Below are positions 1,241-64,000 of a stretch of DNA of 64,000 nt, in pieces. This DNA is from a virus. The position numbers and the translations under genes were made by a program. The notes under the pieces are model-generated. The model saw only the letters and a program-made list of their open reading frames with translations. It had not been told where the DNA came from and made no database searches. Numbering within the stretch: position 1 is the stretch's first letter; every line of letters starts with the position of its first letter. The DNA lies in the IMG/VR virus record IMGVR_UViG_3300025669_001026, positions 1-64,000 of that record. One strand, 5' to 3'.

Positions 1241-1269
1241 ACTATATCGTATGAAGGGGGACTTTTCAA
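1241..1269 (-). promoter_or_regulatory. Sigma70-like promoter
   Basis: Minus strand TTGAAA, 17-bp spacer, TATAGT, about 55 bp upstream of the ATG at 1185. The -35 overlaps the last codons of the preceding gene. Confidence 0.45.
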
Positions 1270-2225
1270 CTGCTATGGCCTGTTGATTTGAGGGCCTGGT
1301 CCTTAGTCATACCTACCTTTTTGGTCCATTCAACATACATACCAGCTGTGCTGATAGGGTTGGATGGTATTACTGCTTCTTTGAGGGCATCATCAAAGGA
1401 CTGCTGCTCGAAGCAATCTAAGCCACTATCAGGGTTACAGTTTACTATACGGTAGTCTAGTTCCTTTGCGGCTTTCTGTATACCTGGGCCATATTCAGTA
1501 ATAATACGCTTATATGTATTATTATTATTGTTAATAGCTGATTTAGTACGCCCTTCATCGAAGTGATACTTATCAGTCTCGTTCATACTCATGTCCACAC
1601 CAAGCAGGCATAGTTTACGGAAACCAAGTACATATGGTAAACGTATAGCTGGTAGTAATACCGTACGGCAACCACCCCACTTTTTATGGCACCCCCAATT
1701 AAAGCTGGCTTCTGTGAAGAACCTATGTGCTGCGAACTTCTCGTTACGTTTAATCCCTATGACATTGGGGCAGTCCTTAGGGAACTTAATACCAATACTG
1801 TCCTTTAGTGTTTTCCATTCCTCGTTATCCCATAGTTCCTTCTCAAAGGTTGCTGTAGGAATAAACTTCTTTATCGCAGGGTTAAGCCAGATCTGCTTAA
1901 CGAATCTACTTGGTTGATCGACGCATGTCCAGAAGTCAGGTATGATACCATTCTGTAATAGTGTTGATGCACCATTATTAAGGGACATAAGCATAACTCC
2001 GGGTTGTTTAAGCTTTTCAAGGTCTAGCTTAAGTAGGCTTGGACCATTAGATACCAGGAAGCAGGTTGCTCCATAGTATTGTCCTATCATATCAACAGGC
2101 GCACCATAGCGCGTGAAGAACATCGGAACAGTTGATCCAAAGTTTGCATGGCCGAATTCGCGGGGTGAGTTCCTTAGGAAGGTCTCGTCGTTCTTGTCGT
2201 TACCCATAGGGGTCATTCTAGGCAT
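1266..2225 (-). CDS. DUF115/MptE-like protein, probable sugar transferase family
   Basis: 319 aa. The N-terminal third holds CFLVSNGPSL, the nucleotide-binding type loop of DUF115/MptE-like proteins (bacterial Maf motility-associated glycosylation factors and relatives). It is followed by MLMSLNNGA and a later LCLLGVDMSM strand, giving a Rossmann-like order. In cellular relatives this family adds nonulosonic acid sugars to protein or makes pterin diphosphate. The neighbours (two glycosyltransferases, cupin, methyltransferase) favour sugar work, such as modifying phage or host surface. A poly-Asn run (five N) interrupts the C-terminal half. Ribosome site CAGGAG precedes ATG. Confidence 0.55.
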   Translation of the reverse strand: MPRMTPMGNDKNDETFLRNSPREFGHANFGSTVPMFFTRYGAPVDMIGQYYGATCFLVSNGPSLLKLDLEKLKQPGVMLMSLNNGASTLLQNGIIPDFWTCVDQPSRFVKQIWLNPAIKKFIPTATFEKELWDNEEWKTLKDSIGIKFPKDCPNVIGIKRNEKFAAHRFFTEASFNWGCHKKWGGCRTVLLPAIRLPYVLGFRKLCLLGVDMSMNETDKYHFDEGRTKSAINNNNNTYKRIITEYGPGIQKAAKELDYRIVNCNPDSGLDCFEQQSFDDALKEAVIPSNPISTAGMYVEWTKKVGMTKDQALKSTGHSS

Positions 2226-27777: not shown

Positions 27778-30700
27778 TTAGCTTTTGTCCACTATACGAA
27801 TAGGATCATCTACGTCTATCTCGCCTTTCCTGTAAGCTTCTTTGGCGTCTGCCTTACTCTTAAAAACTTTAACAGGTGGACCTGGTTTTTGTCTTGTTGC
27901 TATGTTAAGGCCCTGCAAATATTCCCTCATTGGTTTATAATGAGCTTTAAAGTCTTTTATATCCAAAAGGTTCTGTTCGGGCATCATCTTGCTCGCAACT
28001 TCTTGTGCCGCCTTACGTGATACAGGTACGTGGAAGTTTGCTGCATCTCCATCAAAATCCATATTGAATGGTCCTACAATACTAGGACTAACCTGTATAG
28101 TGCTACCCTTTGTCAGTACTGGCCAGAAACCCATTAAGCTAAACTTATGGAGTGAAGGTGCTCTGTTCAGAATTACAGGACGTTCCTCAACTGCCTTTTG
28201 TAGTAGAGAATAAGCCGCTGGGTGTTTCTCAGCTGTCATCTTAACTGCGTCTGTTGCTTTATATCCACCCTGTATGAGTGCTTTAACAACAAATGGTTCA
28301 TAGATGTTCCAAGCCTGTTCCTCTGGGAGTCCGATCTGATTAAGCTTTAATGCTGGGTTAGGTGTGACTGTTCCTCTGCCCACCATGTCAACAGCAGATC
28401 CTACAACACGGCGTTGGAAGGCACCATACTTAGGGGAACTCTTACCGAATACCCACTTAAGTAATCCACCTACATTCTTCTGCTGTAGCTTAATTCCATC
28501 TGGGTCGTGTAATCCTGTTATTGCTTTAAAGCCTCTATAGATCTGAGCTCTAGCATCTCCCAGCATATCATCAGGTAGTTGTTCTCTGGCGTCTTTAAAA
28601 TCTTTGTTAGCATCTATCAGTGCTTTATAGAGGTAGTTAGCATCAGCAACCATTGTCATACCATCTACAGATGTAATAGGTCTGTACTTAGGTGGTAGGA
28701 CTGGTATTCTATCAAGCATGAAGTCTTTAGGGTGCATCTTCTGCAGTTTGATGCTGGCTAATGCTCTATACTTCTTAATCGCATTGTCCCTACGCGTACC
28801 CGTGCTACGCTTTATATCTTCCATGGCATACTTGACCTCTCTGGTAAGGTCGATCTTACCTAGGGCTTTCTTTAATGCGTTACCCCCTGTATCACCATTC
28901 AACTCTTTACGGCCCTCTGCTACTGCTTCGAAATCTTTTAATGTCATATCTAAGGATCTGCGTAAGCTATCAGCCATTACAGGATTAGGGATAGGTTCAT
29001 CTAATGGGATATAACCCCACTGGTTACCGTCCGGTCCAAATACATCTTTACCGAACAAGCCACCATCAATTGGTCTGTATGTGTTAGTCTCAAATGTATC
29101 AGCTGACTTAACCTGTCGACCCTGGCTGAGACGGCCTACATCATCATTGTTCATACCGAAGATATCAATACTGCTTTTGCCTTTACGTACATTAATACCA
29201 GCACCCTTTAGGTGTTCAAAGAACTTGCTATGTACTAAAGGTGTACCAGGCATAGTAGGAGTCTTACCAAATTTAAATGCACGCCAGAACTCATCGTTGG
29301 CCTGCCCTTTAACTATCTTAGCATCTTTAAGGACTTCCATAACAGAGTGACCTATTAAAGCTGAGGTTTCTAAGCCACCAAGCCGTTTGCTACCTTCATA
29401 GCCACCTGACGCTGGGACGTTATCCATTGTATATCCAGCTGTACCACGGCCTGACTCTTTAGATTCAGCTGTATGTTTTAATTTATAATAGTAAGCCATC
29501 CCGTTAAATACCTTAGGAATAGTCTTACCAGTTTCAGGATCAAGCAGATCATCTGTATCTGATAGTCCGTTTTCTTTTAGATCAGCCATCGCCTTCTCCG
29601 CCGCATCTTCAGTCATAAAGGCCGGTAGATCTATGGCTTTACCTCTTTTCTGGGCTATCTTACCATAGGCAACTTCAATTAACTGGGCCGGATTAGTACG
29701 GGAAACGACGCTTAGAGGACTCATTAATATTTCGAATGGTTTACCCTTCTTATCTAAAGGCATTTGGTTATCAGGTACAACCTCTGCTACTACTCCCTTT
29801 GAACCATATCTATTTGAATTACCGGACCACACTGTTTTACCATTACGTCTCGTATAGACTATGTGATTAAAAGGCATCTCAGGGCAATAGACCTTTCCTG
29901 AATAGTTTTCATCCCAGTATTCCGTCTGACCCTTCTGTGTCTTGGCATGCCCGTGGTTGATCGTGGGTTGGTTTTTATATCGGTATGTGCTTACCGTGTA
30001 GGATGGTTTAGCAAAACAATTTCGTCCGCATATAATGCGTGGTCCACCTTTATCTGTAAGTCTTACAGTGGCGGACATTCCCATATGAAGACATAATCTT
30101 TGCCAATCCCCTGCGAGACGGCTGGAGACTGTAGTTATTCCGTGTCCTGCTTGGGTTCTGTGCCCGTCGCCGAACATGAACCACTCATAAAAAATGGCCA
30201 AAAGATCAGGTGACAGGGTCAGTATGTTATCAGGTATGTACTTTTCGGGTGCTTTTCCAAATTGTTTGAGATAAGAAGCCCAGTGCTTACTATACACTCT
30301 TATTTTTTCAGAATGAGACCCTTCACACCACTTCACACCTAATCTGGTAAAGGCCTTTTGCAGTATATATTTATTATTACCTTTTGTTTGGCTTATATCA
30401 AAACCATAAGAACCACTACTAGGCTGCCACACTGAATTGCCGTCGGATAGGTAGATGCCCATTATAGTCAGATAAGCCTCTATCGAAACCTCAGGCCCCT
30501 CAACAAGTTTCATGGTTCTACCTACACCCATAACAACGGGTGGTAATTTGAACGTATCCTGGTGTATGCCTTTCCACTTACCCGTTTTTTCCAGCCTGTA
30601 CTTTTTACCATATAAATCAGAGGCCTTATGAAGACCATATTCCCACCTTGCTTCTTTACCCTTTCTAAGGGCTGCATAATGTTTATGCTCCTCAGTAACA

Positions 30701-33700
30701 CACAGGCTGACCTGTGTTGTTTCTACTACATGCATACTACCAGAGTGGTCGTAGCTATGCAATGCTGAAGGGTTGATGTATTGTATGTTTTTTGTATCAG
30801 GATCTAGGGTGGCCAATTCATCAGCCAGTGTTACAGTCGTAATATTCTTCCACCCCTTTGAGGTTAGCAGATCTGTATCCTCAGAGTAACACATCTTATC
30901 GCCTACCTTCATAGGTACATTGGCTCTGGAGAAGACTGTGTGATTCTCGCGACCTGTAACTACATCTGTTATAACTCCCGGGTAATCATGTTCCCACTTC
31001 TCGGAGACATCTGTAAATGTACGACGACCCGCGGTACCGGGGGATGGCTGGTTCTCTCTGATACCTAGTATAAGTGGATCACCTTTGTCAACAACTGAAC
31101 CCGTTTTAATCATACCGTTAGGATCCATCTTATCAAATTGATCTGCCGTATACTTGCCCGGGAACATGTTAACATATCGTTTGGTATCTGTGGATAGATG
31201 TTTTTCTTTAGGTAGCTTTGTATTGTACATATGCTCGGATGTTAATCTCTTAGCTGCTGCCTCTGATATTACGATAGCATCCTCATAGTTAGAGCCTTTA
31301 AAGTTCATGAAAGCTGTACGAAGATTCAAACCACCCGCGAACACACCATCATTAGCTGTGTAGTTGCTTGAGGCTAGTGCTTGACCTTTCTTAAACGTAT
31401 CACCAGCTTTAACTTCAGCATGGCTCCTTAGGTAACCCTTCTGGTTGGCCGGGAAGTTATCATAAAGCTCATGCTCTGCTTGTTCCCCGTCTATATATTC
31501 AACGATTATTTTATCTTTACGTACTTGTTTTACGACACCTGCTTTAGGTGCCTGGACCGCTCCTGTGTATTTACCTGCTAATCTTTCTACAGAACCGGTA
31601 CCTGTACCATCTGCGCTACGTGTTAGTGCTGCTTCTCTATTAACTAAGGGTAAAGCCTGTGTAGCGTATTTACTATTATGTACAAATATACCTTGACCTA
31701 CTGAGAATGTGTGGTCATTGAGATCCAGATCATATGTAATGGCTACAGGGTCTACGTCCTTTATACCAACCACGCTATCCCACCTTATCTCACTATCTAA
31801 CCAGATGCATTCCTCGGAGGATATGCGCTCTTGTAATGATTGTTTCGTATGTTGATTAACATATGCGCGATGTCTAAAGTGCTCCTTACGGGTAGATCGC
31901 TGTAGTACGCTGGCATGAAGATCTTTATACATAGGTATGTAATCTATATTCTTTTTACCGGACCACAGTTTCAGCGTAGACATCCTCTTAGCTTTTTCGT
32001 TATGAGTAAGCACCGGGACTTTATGTAAATGCTGGGACCTTACTTCGAGTAAGTAGATAGGTTTATCGAGGGCTGTGGTTTCTCTAACCACTGTATCAAT
32101 CTGTAGTGTGCTGAATAGGTTCGACAAACCCTCTATAAGGTCATAACTTCTCACACCTGTAATTAGCCTGGCGTAGCCTCTTCTATCCATCACAGTACCA
32201 TCTCCGTCAAAAAATCCAGCTATAAAACCTTCCCTACACCCTAAGGGGGCCTGCAGGATCAGTCCCGCAACCTTCTTCTTGTAAGAACCCGTTTCCAAAT
32301 TAGCATGTAACCAACGTGCAAACCCTGAGTGATTGACCACTACCTTCTTATGAGGGTCGGCACCATTGCGTCTTATTTTATACTTAAGATCCAAGTCATC
32401 TAATACAGCACATAATCTCTTCTGCAATTCCGGTCTATCAACTGCCCAGCTTGTTGTACCATATCCATGGCCCCTATCTCCTTGTAACCAGCCCTCTGCA
32501 GTATATAAACCCAGCATGTATCCCACGCCCTCTGTGAGCTCCATCTCAAAGCCCGAAAAACTATTATGCTTGGCCCCCTTCCCTATGGTCACAGATGTGA
32601 TGCCTTCTTCCATGGGGAAGTCTAACCAACCTTCTCTGGGGATGGGTGTACCCATAACTAGATTCTGAGCTGTGATCTTTTCTAAAGTTCCTTGTTCACT
32701 CATAGTCACCCATTTATGATTAACAGTTGTAGTTAGTTTTCTACCACTTTTTAATTTAACTTCTAACATATCTATTTTATTATAATTAGGCACCAATCGC
32801 TCAACCCCTCTCCAGGTTGTCTTTCCAGTAGTCTGATCAACTGAGTGCGCTTGGTCTCCTTGGTGCCATTCGTAATTCTCTATATGACCATAAAATATAC
32901 TATTATCAGCTTTTTTAATTATAATATTAGTATCAGGAGCCAGGCACCCCATCAATAATCTCATACCTTTAACACCGCCCTTGAATGGTACCATGTTAGA
33001 ACCCAATGAGAACATGTTATTATCATCACTAAGATAGTAGTCCACATCTTTACGGGGTGCTATATGTACACCACGCTCTCCACCCACTAGAGGGATATAA
33101 GGGTCTTTAGTATCCATGTACTCCGAAGTAGCTATATTGGCTGTTGCTGCTGTCTTAGAGTCTACCCATTCTTTCTTACCTGTGCGTGGGTTGAATAACT
33201 GTGTATATAGTAGGCCATCATGTCCTTTACGTGTATTCTGTGTCATGAACATTTGTAGTCCCACGGCGAGAGACTCTGGTGATCTGATCGGGTCTATGTA
33301 TCCTTTAAAGGAGTTCTGTACCAATCTCATCTCATCAGATGCTAAACGTTGGCTGCTCAAGCCTCCCTCGCCTAGACGTGTAATACGTGTAGCTGAGTCA
33401 ATAGCATCAAAAGGGCTTGACCCGTCAATGTACTGTGCTAATTTTGATTCATTAAAGACTCCGTCAACATGTGCATTAAGTGCACCAGATGACATAAAGT
33501 CCAGGTTCTTTTTGTTTGTAGCCTTCCATAAGAGGGCACGGCCTAGTCGGCCACCATCTTTGACAATACGTTCTGCAAAAATCTCAGCAGGTCCATATAC
33601 TTTCTGAAACTGCATGCTATCCCTATTATCTGCCTTTGATGTGCCTTTAGCTAATCTTAATAGTTTATCCGATGTACCTAACAGCATATCAGGTGATACT

Positions 33701-34515
33701 CTGTCATAAGGCTTGCCAAGAGTGGCTTCTGTGGATACAGGGTCTAGTCGCATCGTTCCAAACGATTCTAAGAGCGCTTTAGCATCATCCGGACTCAGAG
33801 TCACGTAATTGGCTTTCGTGCCGTCAGAGGCTTCCTTGGGTAGTAGCTTTTGAAGATTACGTGTTACCATAGTTCCGGAACTTGCCAGCCTGTTGGTATT
33901 GAGCAATTCAGTGCCCCACATCTCCTCTATTTTCTTATCAGGGATACCCATGGATCTGAGAATAGGATAAAGCCTTGCATTGACATTACCCTTACGAATA
34001 TTAAATACACCAGTCTCTGGGTCGATCTCCATCTTAAACTGGGAACCTGTACCTTGTTCTACATTAACATGGGCCTCATATAATCCATTAGCCTTTACCC
34101 GCGAGTAAACACCCGGGTTTAGGCGCAGCACGTGTCCAATAGTCATCTCATGGCCATTACGGATATAAGTACCACGTGGAGTAATATAAGGAACATTAAG
34201 TAAAGTAACTTTCTTAGTCTGGCTTACTGGTTTGCCTGTGAGTTTATCGGTAAGTGTCCATCTACCCTTAAGTCTACGACCTAGGCTTCTACCTTTTAGG
34301 ATTGCTTCTTTCTGCTCCTTTAGGGAATAACTATCCGGGCCATCGTAATCCACTTCATCTACAGCTAGAGTATAATCATCATTCTCTAAAGGGAAACGTT
34401 GCGATACAGCAGCTTTGACATTATCCATTGTGGCGTTTCTTATGCCATCAAAATCTAAAATGTCATACCTGTACGTAGGTTGCTTCTTTAATTCCGATAA
34501 AAATGTTTGGGTCAT
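27778..34515 (-). CDS. RNA polymerase beta subunit fused to beta' N-terminal half, two inteins
   Basis: 2245-aa precursor; inteins at 524-947 and 1209-1566, mature length 1463. Beta motifs in order: MRLLMG|SKYATQALPLV, GSNYEDAIVISE (1074-1085), VGDKM|SNRYGSKGVVAEVVP, AYYYKLKHTAESK...SGRG, GYEGSKRLGGLET. Beta' motifs follow in the same frame: PPKYRPI, GRGTVTPNPALKLNQIGLP, RPVILNRAPSLHKF, and the catalytic FNMDFDGDAANFH (D2153, D2155, D2157), against cellular NADFDGDQM. It ends shortly after the active site; the rest of beta' is at 23190-26168. ATG overlaps the upstream stop. Mature total (2070 aa) is well below bacterial beta+beta'. Confidence 0.95.
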   Translation of the reverse strand: MTQTFLSELKKQPTYRYDILDFDGIRNATMDNVKAAVSQRFPLENDDYTLAVDEVDYDGPDSYSLKEQKEAILKGRSLGRRLKGRWTLTDKLTGKPVSQTKKVTLLNVPYITPRGTYIRNGHEMTIGHVLRLNPGVYSRVKANGLYEAHVNVEQGTGSQFKMEIDPETGVFNIRKGNVNARLYPILRSMGIPDKKIEEMWGTELLNTNRLASSGTMVTRNLQKLLPKEASDGTKANYVTLSPDDAKALLESFGTMRLDPVSTEATLGKPYDRVSPDMLLGTSDKLLRLAKGTSKADNRDSMQFQKVYGPAEIFAERIVKDGGRLGRALLWKATNKKNLDFMSSGALNAHVDGVFNESKLAQYIDGSSPFDAIDSATRITRLGEGGLSSQRLASDEMRLVQNSFKGYIDPIRSPESLAVGLQMFMTQNTRKGHDGLLYTQLFNPRTGKKEWVDSKTAATANIATSEYMDTKDPYIPLVGGERGVHIAPRKDVDYYLSDDNNMFSLGSNMVPFKGGVKGMRLLMGCLAPDTNIIIKKADNSIFYGHIENYEWHQGDQAHSVDQTTGKTTWRGVERLVPNYNKIDMLEVKLKSGRKLTTTVNHKWVTMSEQGTLEKITAQNLVMGTPIPREGWLDFPMEEGITSVTIGKGAKHNSFSGFEMELTEGVGYMLGLYTAEGWLQGDRGHGYGTTSWAVDRPELQKRLCAVLDDLDLKYKIRRNGADPHKKVVVNHSGFARWLHANLETGSYKKKVAGLILQAPLGCREGFIAGFFDGDGTVMDRRGYARLITGVRSYDLIEGLSNLFSTLQIDTVVRETTALDKPIYLLEVRSQHLHKVPVLTHNEKAKRMSTLKLWSGKKNIDYIPMYKDLHASVLQRSTRKEHFRHRAYVNQHTKQSLQERISSEECIWLDSEIRWDSVVGIKDVDPVAITYDLDLNDHTFSVGQGIFVHNSKYATQALPLVNREAALTRSADGTGTGSVERLAGKYTGAVQAPKAGVVKQVRKDKIIVEYIDGEQAEHELYDNFPANQKGYLRSHAEVKAGDTFKKGQALASSNYTANDGVFAGGLNLRTAFMNFKGSNYEDAIVISEAAAKRLTSEHMYNTKLPKEKHLSTDTKRYVNMFPGKYTADQFDKMDPNGMIKTGSVVDKGDPLILGIRENQPSPGTAGRRTFTDVSEKWEHDYPGVITDVVTGRENHTVFSRANVPMKVGDKMCYSEDTDLLTSKGWKNITTVTLADELATLDPDTKNIQYINPSALHSYDHSGSMHVVETTQVSLCVTEEHKHYAALRKGKEARWEYGLHKASDLYGKKYRLEKTGKWKGIHQDTFKLPPVVMGVGRTMKLVEGPEVSIEAYLTIMGIYLSDGNSVWQPSSGSYGFDISQTKGNNKYILQKAFTRLGVKWCEGSHSEKIRVYSKHWASYLKQFGKAPEKYIPDNILTLSPDLLAIFYEWFMFGDGHRTQAGHGITTVSSRLAGDWQRLCLHMGMSATVRLTDKGGPRIICGRNCFAKPSYTVSTYRYKNQPTINHGHAKTQKGQTEYWDENYSGKVYCPEMPFNHIVYTRRNGKTVWSGNSNRYGSKGVVAEVVPDNQMPLDKKGKPFEILMSPLSVVSRTNPAQLIEVAYGKIAQKRGKAIDLPAFMTEDAAEKAMADLKENGLSDTDDLLDPETGKTIPKVFNGMAYYYKLKHTAESKESGRGTAGYTMDNVPASGGYEGSKRLGGLETSALIGHSVMEVLKDAKIVKGQANDEFWRAFKFGKTPTMPGTPLVHSKFFEHLKGAGINVRKGKSSIDIFGMNNDDVGRLSQGRQVKSADTFETNTYRPIDGGLFGKDVFGPDGNQWGYIPLDEPIPNPVMADSLRRSLDMTLKDFEAVAEGRKELNGDTGGNALKKALGKIDLTREVKYAMEDIKRSTGTRRDNAIKKYRALASIKLQKMHPKDFMLDRIPVLPPKYRPITSVDGMTMVADANYLYKALIDANKDFKDAREQLPDDMLGDARAQIYRGFKAITGLHDPDGIKLQQKNVGGLLKWVFGKSSPKYGAFQRRVVGSAVDMVGRGTVTPNPALKLNQIGLPEEQAWNIYEPFVVKALIQGGYKATDAVKMTAEKHPAAYSLLQKAVEERPVILNRAPSLHKFSLMGFWPVLTKGSTIQVSPSIVGPFNMDFDGDAANFHVPVSRKAAQEVASKMMPEQNLLDIKDFKAHYKPMREYLQGLNIATRQKPGPPVKVFKSKADAKEAYRKGEIDVDDPIRIVDKS
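29818..30891 (-). other. Intein II in the beta part (358 aa)
   Basis: Residues 1209-1566. Cys1 (CYSEDTDLLTSKGW), block B SLCVTEEHKHYAAL, endonuclease-like LTIMGIYLSDGN and FYEWFMFGDGH, C-end GKVYCPEMPFNHIVYTRRNG...VWSGN then Ser +1. The penultimate residue is Gly rather than His, a known variant. It splits GDKM from the GNKG-type loop that carries the two substrate-binding lysines of beta. Confidence 0.9.
31675..32946 (-). other. Intein I in the beta part (424 aa)
   Basis: Residues 524-947. Cys1 (CLAPDTNIIIKKADNS), block B TTTVNHKWVTM, LAGLIDADG motifs MLGLYTAEGWL and FIAGFFDGDGTV, C-end ITYDLDLNDHTFSVGQGIFVHN then Ser +1. It lies in the RALMGANMQRQAVP-equivalent segment of beta. Confidence 0.93.
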
Positions 34516-54926: not shown

Positions 54927-55241
54927 CTACTTACTATATTGAGGGTTCTTCTTAATGAATTCCCAGTCCTTCTGGAATCCTGGCACTAACTTAGGCGGGT
55001 TAGCTGCCTTTACTGATGCCTTGGCTGCTGCCTGGTCAATCTTAGGTTCCGGTGGGTTAGCTGCCTTTACTGATGCCTTGGCTGCTGCCTGGTCAATCTT
55101 AGGTTCCGGTACTGCCGGGTTAGGTGGTGCTGTGTGGGCTGTTTGTATAGTGTCATCATTATTAGGCTTTGTTCTATATTCACCGCCTGCTTCCTTCTCA
55201 AGATATCCAATCATATATCCGTTTAAATAGCTGTTGTTCAT
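54927..55241 (-). CDS. Tagged protein with duplicated 19-aa unit (104 aa)
   Basis: N-terminus NNSYLNGYMIGYLEKEAGGE is a clear tag copy. A 19-residue unit PEPKIDQAAAKASVKAANP occurs twice in tandem (57-bp exact DNA repeat). Short C-terminus KDWEFIKKNPQYSK. Likely packaged. Confidence 0.6.
   Translation of the reverse strand: MNNSYLNGYMIGYLEKEAGGEYRTKPNNDDTIQTAHTAPPNPAVPEPKIDQAAAKASVKAANPPEPKIDQAAAKASVKAANPPKLVPGFQKDWEFIKKNPQYSK
54997..55110. repeat. Exact 57-bp tandem repeat, two copies
   Basis: 54997-55053 and 55054-55110 are identical, in frame, encoding the 19-aa Ala/Lys unit. Confidence 0.93.
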
Positions 55242-60028: not shown

Positions 60029-60133
60029 TCAGCGCTCTGCAGCGGCCCTGATATGTGTGGCTTTATGTATACCCTCTCCGTTATGTGCTAAAAATATAGC
60101 TAGTAGAACTTTCGTTCTAGTATATAATGCCAT
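60029..60133 (-). CDS. Possible mini-protein (34 aa)
   Basis: ATG at 60133, ten bases after the HTH gene stop, weak ribosome site. MALYTRTKVLLAIFLAHNGE then GIHKATHIRAAAER: hydrophobic N-terminal half, basic C-terminal half. Otherwise the 59892-60143 stretch holds no gene. Confidence 0.25.
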   Translation of the reverse strand: MALYTRTKVLLAIFLAHNGEGIHKATHIRAAAER

Positions 60134-60143
60134 AATTATGCGT

Positions 60144-60452
60144 TCATTTAACCTGCTTTTTGAGTAGCTCCTGAACCGCAATATTTGCAGTTATATCCCC
60201 AGAGCTCATACTTCTGATAAGACCCTTCCTACCACTCTTGAGTACTCTCACTATGCGTTCCCCAGATGAGGCACTGATTCCGAGCTCTTCAGCTATGTCC
60301 TCAGCTGCTTTACCTTTAAATGCCCCTCTAGGGCTGGGTGCATGGTTGCCCTGCCTTTCCTTGGCATCCCTTGATGCCTTTCGTAGCAGGCTACCGATCT
60401 TGCGGATCGTCTCGGTCCGTCTTATTGTAACTCCTGACAATGTTTTCGTCAT
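60144..60452 (-). CDS. Helix-turn-helix DNA-binding protein (102 aa)
   Basis: Basic N-terminus (RRTETIRKIGSLLRKASRDAK), then KAAEDIAEELGISASSGERIVRVLKSG, a ParB/KorB- or sigma-4-like HTH. C-terminal helix. Last product of the Cys-rich array: its Shine-Dalgarno and ATG are inside the conserved 3' end of the 60391-60729 gene. A candidate regulator of the array. Confidence 0.65.
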   Translation of the reverse strand: MTKTLSGVTIRRTETIRKIGSLLRKASRDAKERQGNHAPSPRGAFKGKAAEDIAEELGISASSGERIVRVLKSGRKGLIRSMSSGDITANIAVQELLKKQVK

Positions 60453-60729
60453 CTGTTAGCTCCTTTAGTTTAAGTAGGTCTACGTATAAACCGTCACACT
60501 TGTCTTCTATGATCTCTTTTATTAATTGCTCCTTGTTCTTAGCTTTCACTAAGGCATCAGCGGACCATGCGGGGTAGTCTGTAAAACATATAACCGATGT
60601 GCAAGTAGGTGTTATGCCTCCATTATATATGGGACACCCACTACCACAGCCCTTACAGCCCCCATCAGCAAGACAGTGGTATACTGTATCCCTAATCATC
60701 TTAGGTGTTAGTTGTATTTGTTTCTTCAT
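60391..60729 (-). CDS. Cys-rich array protein (112 aa)
   Basis: Array member. N-terminus QIQLTPKMIRDTVYHCLADG matches the INWTPxLIRK...C start of two other members; CKGCGSGCPIYNGG is the family CxGCPxY motif; C-terminal GLYVDLLKLKELTDDE is the shared junction peptide, followed by a unique tail. Start codon lies in the upstream gene's junction. Zinc binding likely; function unknown. Confidence 0.7.
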   Translation of the reverse strand: MKKQIQLTPKMIRDTVYHCLADGGCKGCGSGCPIYNGGITPTCTSVICFTDYPAWSADALVKAKNKEQLIKEIIEDKCDGLYVDLLKLKELTDDENIVRSYNKTDRDDPQDR

Positions 60730-61021
60730 CGCTCAGCTCCTTAACGTGTAGTAGGTCCTGGTATAGAGGATCTATAAGCTGTAGGTGTGTATGACTACCG
60801 TATCCGCATACTCTATGGTTGTTCTTAAACCGAGGGCATGCGACATTCCCCGCGGATAGAGGAGGCTTGCTTAATGCACAGGTATGGCAAATGTGCTCCT
60901 TAGCTTTAATTGATACCTTTTTAAACATATATGACCGCCCTCCTTGTGCTCTTATAAGGTATACCTTATTAGGCTTAACAACCTCAGCAGAGTATTCAAT
61001 TAGTCTTATTGTCTCCTCCAT
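60701..61021 (-). CDS. Cys-rich array protein (106 aa)
   Basis: Array member. N-terminal beta region (IRLIEYSAEVVKPNKVYLIR), CHTCALSKPPLSAGNVACPRF as the Cys core, then a shared linker (HLQLIDPLYQDLLHVKELSD) and unique tail EETNTTNT. Starts in the junction of the 60996-61190 gene. N-terminus differs from other members, so the array mixes different N-terminal modules. Confidence 0.7.
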   Translation of the reverse strand: MEETIRLIEYSAEVVKPNKVYLIRAQGGRSYMFKKVSIKAKEHICHTCALSKPPLSAGNVACPRFKNNHRVCGYGSHTHLQLIDPLYQDLLHVKELSDEETNTTNT

Positions 61022-61190
61022 CGCATATCTCCTTTAATGTTAATAAGTCTCTGTATAGTGGGTCACTGACATAGCGTGGTATGTACGTTTTGCACTTCAA
61101 GGGGCTGTTACCCTTCGTAAAGTCCCATTCACCATCACAAGTACGCATCAGCTTACGGCACCTCTTACAAGTTGATTTAAGGCTGCTCAT
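60996..61190 (-). CDS. Cys-rich array protein, short (64 aa)
   Basis: Array member. CKRCRKLMRTCDGEWDF...CKTYIP core and VSDPLYRDLLTLKEICD junction peptide; lacks the longer N-terminal module. AAGGAG and ATG for the next gene are inside its 3' end. Confidence 0.65.
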   Translation of the reverse strand: MSSLKSTCKRCRKLMRTCDGEWDFTKGNSPLKCKTYIPRYVSDPLYRDLLTLKEICDGGDNKTN

Positions 61191-61482
61191 CGCTTAGCTC
61201 CTTTACTTTAAGTAGATCTGCATATAATGGATCCGAGTACTGCTCTATTGCGTTCCGGAGTATTTCATCCTTATGCTTTATTATAAAGCTTTTCCAAGAG
61301 CCATCAGGCAGTTTGTGTTCATCAACCCTTATGCATTTACACCAGTTGACACACCTATTATCAGGTTCGAACAGAGGGCATTCGCTACACTCTTCACCGG
61401 GTTCTTTGCTGCAAAGTACGCATCTCTCTAAACCTTCTTTAAGGTCTTGTGGGTTTATATATTTACTCTTCAATGGTTCCAT
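61177..61482 (-). CDS. Cys-rich array protein (101 aa)
   Basis: Array member. YINPQDLKEGLERCVLCSKE, ECSECPLFEPDNRCVNWCKC core (eight Cys), C-terminal YSDPLYADLLKVKELSDEQP. Probable zinc-binding. Start lies in the junction of the frameshifted gene upstream. Confidence 0.7.
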   Translation of the reverse strand: MEPLKSKYINPQDLKEGLERCVLCSKEPGEECSECPLFEPDNRCVNWCKCIRVDEHKLPDGSWKSFIIKHKDEILRNAIEQYSDPLYADLLKVKELSDEQP

Positions 61483-61739
61483 TGCTTATCTCCTTTACTT
61501 TAAGCAGGTCCATGTATAATGAATCTACCTCTGCGAAACTACAAGGCACTACTGAACATACTTTTTTTGTGCATAAGAGGGCATCCTGCGCATGTTCCAC
61601 TCATTGAATATTTACCATAGAAGACCACACCTTCTTCCGTGAACTTTACTATGTCCCCCTCCTTTAGTGTATGGCTACCGTGGCACCAACCAGGCTCGTT
61701 GACGCCATCAGGGTCAAATTCATATTCATGCATTGTCAT
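61462..61739 (-). pseudogene. Cys-rich array gene split by an A7 frameshift
   Basis: Frame from ATG 61739 gives 66 aa (MTMHEYEFDPDG...CAGCPLMHKKSMFSSAL) and stops at 61539. If one A is removed from the run at 61563-61569, the frame continues CPLMHKKVCSVVPC...VDSLYMDLLKVKEIS to 61462, restoring the family C-terminus. Either a homopolymer indel, or slippage/+1 frameshifting that regulates the product. The junction for the next gene is intact. Confidence 0.65.
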
Positions 61740-62061
61740 CGCTTAACTCCTTTACTTTAAGCAGGTCCAGGTATACTGGATCCAGGAAAGTCTTCATCAT
61801 ACGCTCCACCCCCTCATCCAAGACCTCCTTCCATTCCTCATCGTCATCCTGGCCCAGCGCAGAGGTGGCCCCTTCCTTTAAATATGAGGATACTCTGACA
61901 TCACAGAGCTCCTCTCTAGTGTAGACAGGGCACCCACCGCATGCTGAAACATCACGCTTCTCGGTAGGGTTTAACCATGTTCCATCCACGTTCTTAAAGT
62001 GACAATGGAACATAACCTTCCTGATTAGTTCAGGTGTCCAATTTATTATCTTCTTTTTCAT
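61726..62061 (-). CDS. Cys-rich array protein (111 aa)
   Basis: Array member. KKKIINWTPELIRKVMFHC start, CGGCPVYTREELCDV core, long acidic linker (LGQDDDEEWKEVLDEG), C-terminal LDPVYLDLLKVKELSDDNA. Closest relative here is the 63639-63950 gene. Confidence 0.7.
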   Translation of the reverse strand: MKKKIINWTPELIRKVMFHCHFKNVDGTWLNPTEKRDVSACGGCPVYTREELCDVRVSSYLKEGATSALGQDDDEEWKEVLDEGVERMMKTFLDPVYLDLLKVKELSDDNA

Positions 62062-62203
62062 TGGTTAGCTCCTTAACCTTTAATAGGTCTGCACATAGTG
62101 GGTCTCCTATCAACATAAGTACTGCCCAGTCGAATACTGCTTCCAGACAACAAAGAATCGAGTCTGAGTTAAAATGCAAATTTATTAGAGTTCCCGATTT
62201 AAC
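62030..62203 (-). pseudogene. Remnant array C-terminus after the Pth2 gene
   Basis: The frame just after the Pth2 TGA stays open for 57 codons and contains IGDPLCADLLKVKELTNEKE, the junction peptide, without Cys core or good start (first ATG 62116, no ribosome site). Its DNA still supplies AAGGAG/ATG for the 62061 gene. Likely the 3' end of an array gene replaced upstream, or a TGA-readthrough extension of Pth2. Confidence 0.5.
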
Positions 62204-62632
62204 TCACCAGAGCAATTTAAGATCGCTAGTAATCGGATCTATTTTATCTGCATAATCTGGTCCAATAGCTAGGCAGGTAGGTGTTAGAACACCATTAAAT
62301 TCAGTTAATCCCGAATCAATAATTAGTGCGACGGTCAGACCAACCTCTTCAGCCTTTCTTTTTATTTCAAAAAGTTCTTCTTCCGAATCTGTACTAACAC
62401 ATATCTTAGTGAACTTGCCTTTAATCCATTCCTGTTCGGCTTCTGATACCGTGAATACATACCCAGGAAATTCGCTTTGACCGTTTTCGTCTTCTAAGGA
62501 TTCACATACTTCTGTTTCTTCCATCTTGTCGAAGAATACTTTTAGAGAAGCGTGTGCACCCTGGGCCACCATCTTACCTTTCCTCATCTTGAGATCCTTC
62601 CTCATTACAATAACTTGTTTTATTTTATTCAT
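62204..62632 (-). CDS. pth2: Peptidyl-tRNA hydrolase 2 (Pth2)
   Basis: 142 aa. KQVIVMRKDLKMRKGKMVAQGAHASLKVF at the N-terminus carries the Pth2 signature K-GK-x-x-AQ-x-AHA; TKICVSTDSEEEL, ALIIDSGLTEF and PTCLAIGPDYADKIDPITSDLKLL complete it. Releases tRNA from stalled peptidyl-tRNA. Pth2 is the archaeal/eukaryotic type, seen in some phages. An insertion (EVCESLEDENGQSEF) is present after the first helix. Coupled by ATGA to the upstream gene; with 12 tRNAs here it may recycle phage or host tRNAs. Confidence 0.93.
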   Translation of the reverse strand: MNKIKQVIVMRKDLKMRKGKMVAQGAHASLKVFFDKMEETEVCESLEDENGQSEFPGYVFTVSEAEQEWIKGKFTKICVSTDSEEELFEIKRKAEEVGLTVALIIDSGLTEFNGVLTPTCLAIGPDYADKIDPITSDLKLLW

Positions 62633-62847
62633 TTTACTTCCTCTATAAATCCGTTTACGATTGCGTGTTCTGGGTTATTATCTGTAACATACCAATTCCC
62701 ATCTAATCCTTCTATATACAGATTATTACCTTCGACTTTAATTTTAACATTATCGTTGCTGTCAATTATATAATCTTCAGTATCTCTTGCTTCTTTATTC
62801 TGCACTGTAACATGCAGACATTTATCTTTGACTACTTTATATTCCAC
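62629..62847 (-). CDS. Hypothetical beta-rich protein (72 aa)
   Basis: GTG start with GGAGG upstream. YKVVKDKCLHVTVQNKEA, DYIIDSNDNVKIKVEGNNLY: an all-beta small domain, acidic C-terminus. Coupled to Pth2. Lacks the array junction peptide. Confidence 0.55.
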   Translation of the reverse strand: MEYKVVKDKCLHVTVQNKEARDTEDYIIDSNDNVKIKVEGNNLYIEGLDGNWYVTDNNPEHAIVNGFIEEVK

Positions 62848-63083
62848 CTTCCGTTACCTCCTCCTGACATTCAAGACATAATATAGGACCATCATAAATC
62901 CATAATCTAGCCCCACATGCTTTACATTTGTCGATGTTATCTTTCCGTGCTTTTATTAATTTGAGAAGTTCTTTTGTGTGATCATTTAAGAACCCAACCG
63001 TCCGGATCTTCTATTAGCTGGAGGTGTATATCTTTGTACTCTCTTATATCCCTCAGTTTCATCGTTATTGGTTGTATCGCCAT
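62837..63083 (-). pseudogene. Array-linked zinc-finger gene with a +1 frameshift
   Basis: ATG at 63083 with junction AAGGAG; first frame gives 33 aa ending DPDGWVLK and TGA at 62982-62984. One base further on, the frame continues NDHTKELLKLIKARKDNIDK then CKACGARLWIYDGPILCLEC, a zinc ribbon with no start codon of its own, to TAA at 62837. The joined product would be a coherent ~82-aa protein. Programmed +1 shift at AAA TGA T, or an indel. Confidence 0.5.
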
Positions 63084-63423
63084 CTTTACTCTCCTTTACA
63101 TGTAATAAGTCTGCGTATAGTGGGTCCACTAGTTCAAGGTAGGTATCATCAGGTGGTTGACCTGCATCGCATAGATACTTAGACGCTGGGTAATGTTTAT
63201 TGTATGCCGGGCAGTGGTATTTAATAGTACCAAAAACTGCTGCGTCCTTCTCCTTAGGGGCATAGTCCGGTATACAACAATATTCACATACTCTGTCGTT
63301 TCCTCTATCTAGCTTGCTCTTACGGCGCACAGTAATAACCGTGCCATCGTAGTATTCTATTCTAAATAGGCGAACACCAAGTTGCTTGATGCTCTTAGTC
63401 ATTGCTGGACTTGGTAGATGCAT
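62986..63423 (-). CDS. Cys-rich array protein (145 aa)
   Basis: Array member. N-terminal KQLGVRLFRIEYYDGTVITV beta module, CEYCCIPDY...YHCPAYNKHYP core with CP-x-Y, then LELVDPLYADLLHVKES. It has a long extra tail (ETEGYKRVQRYTPPANRR) that overlaps the next gene in another frame. Confidence 0.65.
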   Translation of the reverse strand: MHLPSPAMTKSIKQLGVRLFRIEYYDGTVITVRRKSKLDRGNDRVCEYCCIPDYAPKEKDAAVFGTIKYHCPAYNKHYPASKYLCDAGQPPDDTYLELVDPLYADLLHVKESKDGDTTNNDETEGYKRVQRYTPPANRRSGRLGS

Positions 63424-63676
63424 CTGTTAGCTCCTTTAGTTTTAGTAGGTCCTGGTAGAGTGGGTCCACCCTCTTATAGACGTGTTCATAGCATAGTATG
63501 TCTACCATCTTAGTGGCGGCACAGCTTCTTTGCATTTCATCACAGTTTGGAGGGTGTCTAATAAGGTCGCAAGCATCGCAGTCCCCTTCGACATCATGTT
63601 TCAGTTTATAATACATGCCGTCTATTTCATGGAGGGCCTTAGCTTCCTTTTTTGTTGGTCTTCTTACATTCGCCAT
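63395..63676 (-). CDS. Cys-rich array protein (93 aa)
   Basis: Array member. Basic N-terminus (ANVRRPTKKEAKALHE), CDACDLIRHPPNCDEMQRSC core, C-terminal RVDPLYQDLLKLKELTD plus tail. Starts in the junction of the 63639 gene. Confidence 0.7.
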   Translation of the reverse strand: MANVRRPTKKEAKALHEIDGMYYKLKHDVEGDCDACDLIRHPPNCDEMQRSCAATKMVDILCYEHVYKRVDPLYQDLLKLKELTDASTKSSND

Positions 63677-63950
63677 CTGTTAGCTCCTTTGCTTTCAATA
63701 GGTCTACGTATAACCCATCGCATAGCACTTCAATGTTATCCTTTATACACTGCTTTATACTTGCAGCTGTCCTTTTGCCTGTTTTATTGCTGATCCTCAT
63801 GCTACGGAAGTCCAGTCCACCGCAAGGCCACTCCTCCTCAGATTTCAGCTCTTCTGAGTATGATGGGCAACCCTTACACGTAGGCTGGTCTATACAGAAC
63901 GTTATAGACTTTCTAACCAGGTCAGGCGTCCAGTTTATTTTCCTCTTCAT
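63639..63950 (-). CDS. Cys-rich array protein (103 aa)
   Basis: Array member. KRKINWTPDLVRKSITFC start, CKGCPSYSEE core, PCGGLDFRSMRISNKTG, C-terminal CDGLYVDLLKAKELTDG plus basic tail. Best preserved example of the family layout: WTP helix, CxGCPxY, junction peptide. Confidence 0.7.
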   Translation of the reverse strand: MKRKINWTPDLVRKSITFCIDQPTCKGCPSYSEELKSEEEWPCGGLDFRSMRISNKTGKRTAASIKQCIKDNIEVLCDGLYVDLLKAKELTDGECKKTNKKGS

Positions 63951-64000
63951 CGCTTAGCTCCTTTACTTTTAATAGGTCCTGGTATAGCGGGTCTATTTCC
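63922..64000 (-). CDS. Cys-rich array protein, 3' end only
   Basis: Frame enters from beyond the window: EIDPLYQDLLKVKELSDEEE then NKLDA and TGA at 63922-63924. Shows that the array extends further. Confidence 0.65.
   Translation of the reverse strand, partial: EIDPLYQDLLKVKELSDEEENKLDA

Follow-up and report, generated by a model that had tools for sequence, protein, structure and literature searches.

A phage gene array whose repeated joint encodes a protein tail and the next gene's start signal, and is probably a site of recombination

How can a phage hold a long row of small genes that differ widely from one another, end in the same peptide and supply one another's start signals? This question is raised by one end of a 64,000-nucleotide stretch of viral DNA (the window), which is positions 1 to 64,000 of the 64,654-base virus record IMGVR_UViG_3300025669_001026. 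From position 60391 onward, Cys-bearing genes lie head to tail, connected by a recurring sequence of about 45 bp (the joint). A first-pass annotation of the window had described about eight Cys-rich paralogues plus insertions, and eight intact full-length Cys-bearing genes are indeed present, together with one edge-cut gene, one frame-broken cassette and one headless tail; its description needs the correction that the genes lie on the minus strand and that the array passes the window edge at 64000 and reaches the contig end at 64654. Overall, its observation was confirmed and its interpretation partly supported. Judged by the sequences compared, the arrangement is real and unusual and includes one clear natural recombinant, and we consider it likely, if well short of certain, that the array was built by homologous recombination at a joint with three simultaneous duties.

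In a pattern scan of viral contigs, four records besides the window contig proved to carry the joint: G001 (96,452 bases), G002 (77,273 bases), G003 (46,437 bases) and G004 (47,953 bases). G001, G003 and G004 are near-identical to the window wherever compared and G002 is a different phage; this number of relatives is a lower bound, as the scans may leave out records very close to the window and more may exist. The full array is seen in G001, with 27 junctions, 26 full-length genes of 64-145 amino acids (aa) and one headless tail. Successive genes overlap there in 25 of 26 pairs, by 11-62 nucleotides (nt) and with the same frame relation in all 25, the remaining pair being separated by inserted genes. 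The 11 junctions of constant spacing reported for the window were reproduced, each with AAGGAG and, 7 nt further on, an ATG. In G001 the gap is exactly 7 nt in 22 of the 25 junctions that precede a member, while two of the other three use an upstream GTG (4 nt) and one has a gap of 10 nt.

The joint is conserved as DNA and its surroundings are not. When the 27 junctions were aligned without gaps at the D of DLL and compared in 10-base bins (351 pairs), pairwise identity was 0.25-0.29 at -120 to -31 and at +50 to +139, which is chance level between paralogues, and between these flanks it rose from 0.34 at -30 to a peak of 0.85 at +10 to +19 before declining to 0.45 and 0.40 at +30 to +49. The earlier statement that a conserved junction connects diverse modules is borne out, and the junctions are far more alike than the genes, so the even similarity that plain tandem duplication would give was not found. 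The joint consensus is GACCTAYTAAAAGTAAAGGAGCTAACAGATG, and its conservation extends about 43 nt upstream of the ATG, farther than a Shine-Dalgarno sequence. In the encoded tail, residues D, D, L, K and E are invariant whichever head type precedes them, and the remaining positions nearly so. The longest exact in-register runs reach 29 bp between junctions vs. at most 9 in the variable parts of the genes (the heads), and runs of at least 12 occur in 142 of the 351 junction pairs.

This one tail is carried by two kinds of head. The 26 G001 genes were sorted by eye into 18 of type A (short beta start, CxxC), some of which fit loosely, and eight of type B (TPELIRK-like start, CxxCP). No homology is detectable between A and B heads (hhalign probability 0.5%), and tail DNA identity is 0.75 between the types, 0.77 within A and 0.75 within B. 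Across 325 G001 pairs, in a test of limited power, head and tail similarity were uncorrelated (0.02, Mantel P 0.40).

Codon choice also separates tail from head. It was examined in the 26 genes at positions where the main residue occurs at least 15 times, with paralogues counted as independent. The K and E of the tail are encoded by AAG GAG in 27 of 27 junctions, found by a search that accepted either codon at both positions, vs. 111 AAG of 189 (0.59) and 88 GAG of 179 (0.49) in the heads of the same genes. Further tail codons lie far from head usage, with CTA in 21 of 26 cases, CCA in 17 of 19 and GTA in 15 of 20. Bias relative to the heads is strong at the P residue (P 0.0002), the first L of DLL (reached in 0 of 5,000 simulations), V (P 0.0022) and the L of KEL (again 0 of 5,000), lesser at the second L and first K (P 0.01-0.02) and weak in the third positions of the D and Y codons upstream of AAGGAG (P 0.05-0.12). 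The last D of the tail is GAT in 21 of 21 because the overlapping ATG requires it. At the conserved head cysteines, codon homozygosity was 0.50 and 0.49 where 0.51 was expected (P 0.52 and 0.75); by this measure the heads are old and saturated in codon choice. Biased tail codons alongside random head cysteine codons imply that the joint is homogenized or under selection at the DNA level, and the tails would be either younger than the heads, homogenized by exchange, or maintained by DNA-level selection.

Exchange is seen among the near-identical phages. Over the 4.8 kb compared, the window equals G001 for 2,884 bp on the left-hand side of one junction and for 1,282 bp on the right-hand side, and the differences are confined to the interval from that junction to 36 nt past the anchor of the next (the anchor being the first base of the GAY codon in D-L-L, converted to window coordinates). 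The window carries one 257-bp cassette (61510-61767, anchor to anchor, minus strand) more than G001, G003 and G004. Its two bounding junctions, with anchors 61767 and 61510, correspond to a single junction in those three records, and this junction is a hybrid: it has the left flank of 61767 and the right half of 61510, and the crossover falls in the L-Y codons, between -9 and -3 relative to the anchor. As read from these alignments, one cassette has been gained or lost by recombination inside a junction. The gene after the extra cassette differs from G001 by seven substitutions, the last at the far end of the interval, and the changed tract resembles an exchange with a related array in that it begins in one junction and ends just past another. 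All seven alter the protein; a reading as positive selection was dropped, as 81% of possible single changes would do so too. Between G001 and G004 there are five differences in 11,454 bp, three of which fall within 9 bp inside one junction and are suggestive of local conversion; no donor for this cluster was found among the array stretches compared.

The joint also occurs in a phage with which the window has no other protein in common in the parts compared. G002 has three array members with the same joint, the second and third of them separated by a 320-aa gene whose product has a BNR_2 (sialidase-like) domain (E 2e-30) and which has a joint at its start and none at its end. This is a different phage with its own number and content of cassettes; the first-pass annotation had proposed to look for arrays of different number and order in related phages. 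When 36.5 kb of G002 were set against the window plus 14 kb of G001, array members alone matched at E 1e-4; one extra match came up in 14 kb at E 1e-3, and its frame runs antisense to the array. Neither the capsid, the polymerase nor the 407-aa neighbor protein of the window had a match in the G002 record, which is possibly a fragment and carries its own terminase, DNA polymerase, primase and helicases.

Outside the array, a 68-bp stretch with 79% DNA identity to G002 contains the promoter-like 15-bp element CATTATATACTAGAA, which lies just past the array in the window (60115-60129, minus strand). Exact copies occur twice in G001 (118 and 12067; one 3.4 kb before the first member and one directly after the array) and twice in G002 (8716 and 56363; one upstream of the array), hinting at shared transcription control in the two phages. 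G002 also has a Cys-rich gene (L011, 12374-12772, plus strand) that ends in IHAELLKV without AAG GAG, the next start signal lying further downstream; it is perhaps a diverged relative. The window encodes a protein matching a phage sialyltransferase family (1266-2225, minus strand, E 4.8e-10), and the G002 array, as noted, has a sialidase-like gene.

The reading that we favor is that the small genes form a single phage operon, in which heads are interchangeable and the joint stays constant. It builds on what was observed directly, namely the junction geometry, the nucleotide-level conservation, the two head types on one tail, the cassette change with its hybrid joint and the same joint in a second phage. 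The joint codes for the end of the upstream protein, a conserved C-terminal stretch that is probably helical (DPLYxDLLKVKEL); the AAG GAG within it is the Shine-Dalgarno sequence of the next gene; and it holds the next ATG at nearly fixed spacing and in a fixed frame. Because joints share this geometry, a crossover between two of them would add, remove or join genes, with a valid tail upstream of it and a valid start downstream. General homologous recombination would act at the joints in place of a dedicated enzyme, and is the simplest route given the exact runs between junctions and their shortness in heads. No tyrosine integrase (PF00589) was found in G001 or G002 (0 of 2 records, both possibly incomplete), with a control that found it in 14 of 14 genomes, and G002 has a RecA-family match (E 1.3e-10). 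Each gene would be translated by coupled or independent initiation, and the constant frame of the 25 overlapping pairs suggests that each stays translated. The first-pass claim that every gene would always be left translated agrees with this constancy; the one cassette that differs is itself frame-broken. Structure is weaker around the starts than elsewhere in the array (mean -4.2 vs. -9.2 kcal/mol per 60-mer), and no consensus fold emerged when 32 ungapped junctions were run through RNAalifold, a pattern that suits open starts and speaks against a folded site of recombination.

That the helix stays constant while the heads vary suggests that the proteins have a docking partner in common; the tail may dock the Cys-bearing heads to one such partner in the infected cell, with a presumed role in host takeover or counter-defense. 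The zinc-binding and anti-defense functions proposed earlier found no support in family or structure searches of types A and B. Family scans covered 20 type A rows (17 from G001, 3 from G002) and eight type B rows against Pfam and PHROGs, and the 20 type A rows against NCBIfam, with the 64-aa member (60996-61190) left out throughout; no family match recurred in more than one array member. The hits obtained were weak, each to a single member, and were judged to be chance; the best, a RE_HaeIII match in one member (E 0.008), is supported by no other member. PDB profile searches returned 0 and 2 matches (best E 0.76). AlphaFold models were poor (mean pLDDT 63 and 57), and these weak models show the tail as part of a C-terminal helix for type A and type B alike; Foldseek, run with the type B model only, gave 19 matches (best E 2.9) that were not used. 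A bolder and rather doubtful extension is that the array is a self-assembling gene library, in which lineages would share a pool of Cys-bearing heads moving as cassettes, the joint would be docking tail, ribosome signal and recombination site at once, and crossovers would keep genes intact and translated, each head being fitted with a tail for the same partner.

Other explanations have to be weighed against recombination at the joint. Plain tandem duplication followed by fast head divergence, with the tail kept by selection on its peptide and on the Shine-Dalgarno sequence and no special recombination, is unlikely. It would accommodate the strong amino-acid conservation of the tail and the stable gene order among close relatives, and the invariant AAG GAG would be selection on the signal itself; it agrees poorly with a tail codon bias that goes beyond the Shine-Dalgarno sequence while conserved head codons are saturated, with the existence of a hybrid junction and, within its limited power, with the lack of correlation between head and tail similarity. 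Somewhat less probable again is that the joint is a nucleotide-level control element under RNA selection, such as the site of a phage translation regulator, and that exchange is a side effect of the repeats. The reach of conservation beyond the Shine-Dalgarno sequence and the weakly structured start regions speak in its favor, whereas the 32 junctions show no conserved RNA structure, the conserved sites track the codons of a conserved peptide and the D and Y third positions are weakly biased. We regard it as very improbable that misassembly at short repeats produced the cassette difference and that the array is otherwise static: the joints are repeats with long exact runs and the end of the G003 contig falls 30 bases upstream of the D-L-L anchor in the hybrid joint, yet the hybrid joint is found in three contigs with different IMG sample numbers and the extra cassette is linked with the seven differences in the next gene.

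Several points weigh against recombination at the joint as we propose it. Codon choice in the joint could likewise be preserved by selection on its DNA without any exchange, and in the codon test each paralogue counts as an independent case. Heads approach saturation even among members of one type, which leaves the head-tail correlation test with little power. The extra cassette is frame-broken, so that the sole variant observed adds no intact tailed protein. A search of G001 for proteins of the RecA, RecT and ERF families found none, so a host enzyme or an unrecognized phage enzyme would have to act. Poor models and the lack of a family match leave the docking role without direct support. Additionally, G001 and G004 share 27 junctions in identical order, G003 agrees across its five, and a single cassette change was seen. 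With identical order in close relatives, rapid shuffling is not demonstrated; of the claim that junction recombination adds, removes and shuffles genes, the part that stands is one cassette change with a hybrid joint. At the scale of close relatives, rearrangement is, from these comparisons, real yet slow.

Known systems resemble the array in part. Integron arrays are made of small head-to-tail genes with a recurring recombination sequence at which cassettes are gained and lost; here, in contrast, no tyrosine integrase was found (G001, G002), the joint is coding and carries the next start signal, and, unlike attC sites, it has no fold by RNAalifold (32 junctions; no attC model was run). In lambdoid phage mosaics, short conserved sequences at gene borders allow modules to recombine, whereas here a single sequence occurs 27 times in one genome, contributes to every protein and provides the start of the following gene. 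In T4 segmental amplification, copies of one segment are reportedly amplified, whereas the array's heads have diverged and the joint alone is common to them. Recombination-driven segmental amplification in T4 alters phage gene content under selection (PMC9391042). The closest described system found is the SAS/ESAS repeat of cluster K mycobacteriophages, a 13-bp sequence with 11-19 copies per genome near genes of different families; it holds AGGAG, typically 3-7 bp before the starts of many genes of the non-structural half, and the upstream gene's stop codon can fall inside the repeat (PMC3203893). Like SAS in that text, the joint is a repeat with AGGAG a few bp before starts. Unlike SAS, which is GGGATAGGAGCCC-like, 13 bp long and spread over half a genome, the joint GACCTAYTAAAAGTAAAGGAGCTAACAGATG was found by strict patterns in one stretch per record, and it has a shared protein tail and cassette exchange, neither of which is described in the portion of the SAS paper available. 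No description of the present arrangement was found in the open-access literature, where start-site repeats, tandem paralogues, coupling, shared tails, mobile stem-loop cassettes and amplification were covered and SAS was the only near relative to emerge, although some searches were too narrow and its absence is weakly tested.

Read in the direction of transcription, with all features on the minus strand, the window's part of the array opens with a type A member cut by the window edge (63922-64000; 63922-64200 in the contig). Junction 1 (63948-63993, anchor 63978) has the tail DPLYQDLLKVKELSD, AAGGAG and an ATG at 63950, and is followed by a type B member of 103 aa (63639-63950). Junction 2 (63674-63719, anchor 63704) leads to a type A member of 93 aa (63395-63676) and junction 3 (63421-63466, anchor 63451) to one of 145 aa with a long C-terminal extension (62986-63423). 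The genes had been said to end each in LYxDLLKVKELSD, with the junction starting the next gene. The ending is general, with a divergent tail, LLHVKESKDG, at junction 4 (63081-63126, anchor 63111); this junction leads to a 33-aa open reading frame (62982-63083) and then to inserted genes, and junction 11, described below, leads to a non-member. The inserted genes encode a 72-aa protein (62629-62847; sub-threshold Pfam match only) and a non-member peptidyl-tRNA hydrolase, PTH2 (62204-62632, E 3.5e-32); the phage that carries PTH2 in its array also has 12 tRNA genes.

Adjoining the insertion, a headless cassette tail (62030-62179) precedes junction 5 (62059-62104, anchor 62089) and a type B member of 111 aa (61726-62061). 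Junctions 6 (61737-61782, anchor 61767) and 7 (61480-61525, anchor 61510) are the left and right of the pair represented by one hybrid junction in the relatives. The extra cassette between them has a 66-aa open reading frame (61539-61739) that stops before the tail, which lies in another frame (61463-61600). The next gene, a type B member of 101 aa (61177-61482) typed, like that of 111 aa, from its G001 allele, holds all seven further differences from G001. Junction 8 (61188-61233, anchor 61218) is followed by the short 64-aa member with CxxC (60996-61190), junction 9 (61019-61064, anchor 61049) by a type A member of 106 aa (60701-61021) and junction 10 (60727-60772, anchor 60757) by the final array gene, a type B member of 112 aa (60391-60729). 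Junction 11 (60450-60495, anchor 60480) starts a non-member gene of 102 aa (60144-60452) with no tail and no Pfam match.

The specificity of the joint was supported by a reversed control pattern, which gave no match in any of the four records, and strict joint patterns matched one stretch only per record. A coding-level motif scan of viral contigs returned 15 stretches, six of which are array stretches of the four known contigs; the other nine were dropped as chance because the motif lies in frames unlike any array member. An alignment-guided scan confirmed G001 and G004 only, and a genome scan gave three matches, all rejected as lying in unrelated frames. Among cultured phages, one DNA query found no match to the array, one type A protein had none and one type B protein had only two, at E 9. 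The phage of the window is tailed and encodes an RNA polymerase of the multisubunit type; for its capsid and polymerase, identity to the corresponding proteins of Salmonella phage Arash and Vibrio phages D69, D148 and D181 is about 29-30%. The IMG sample numbers may be those of Ace Lake in Antarctica. Its 2,245-aa RNA polymerase protein (27778-34515, minus strand) has a thymidylate-synthase PHROG match at residues 1206-1317, perhaps an inserted element, and a small protein (54927-55241, minus strand) has an exact internal repeat, with PEPKIDQAAAKASVKAANP twice.

If recombination at the joint is the right reading, a virus would keep an open-ended, always-expressible library of genes without a dedicated recombinase, with the joint securing frame, tail and start. 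The arrangement would also give a rule by which such arrays may be searched for: a conserved C-terminal peptide whose codons are the Shine-Dalgarno sequence of the next gene. Finally, the constant tail could serve as a single bait for the common partner of some 26 uncharacterized proteins.

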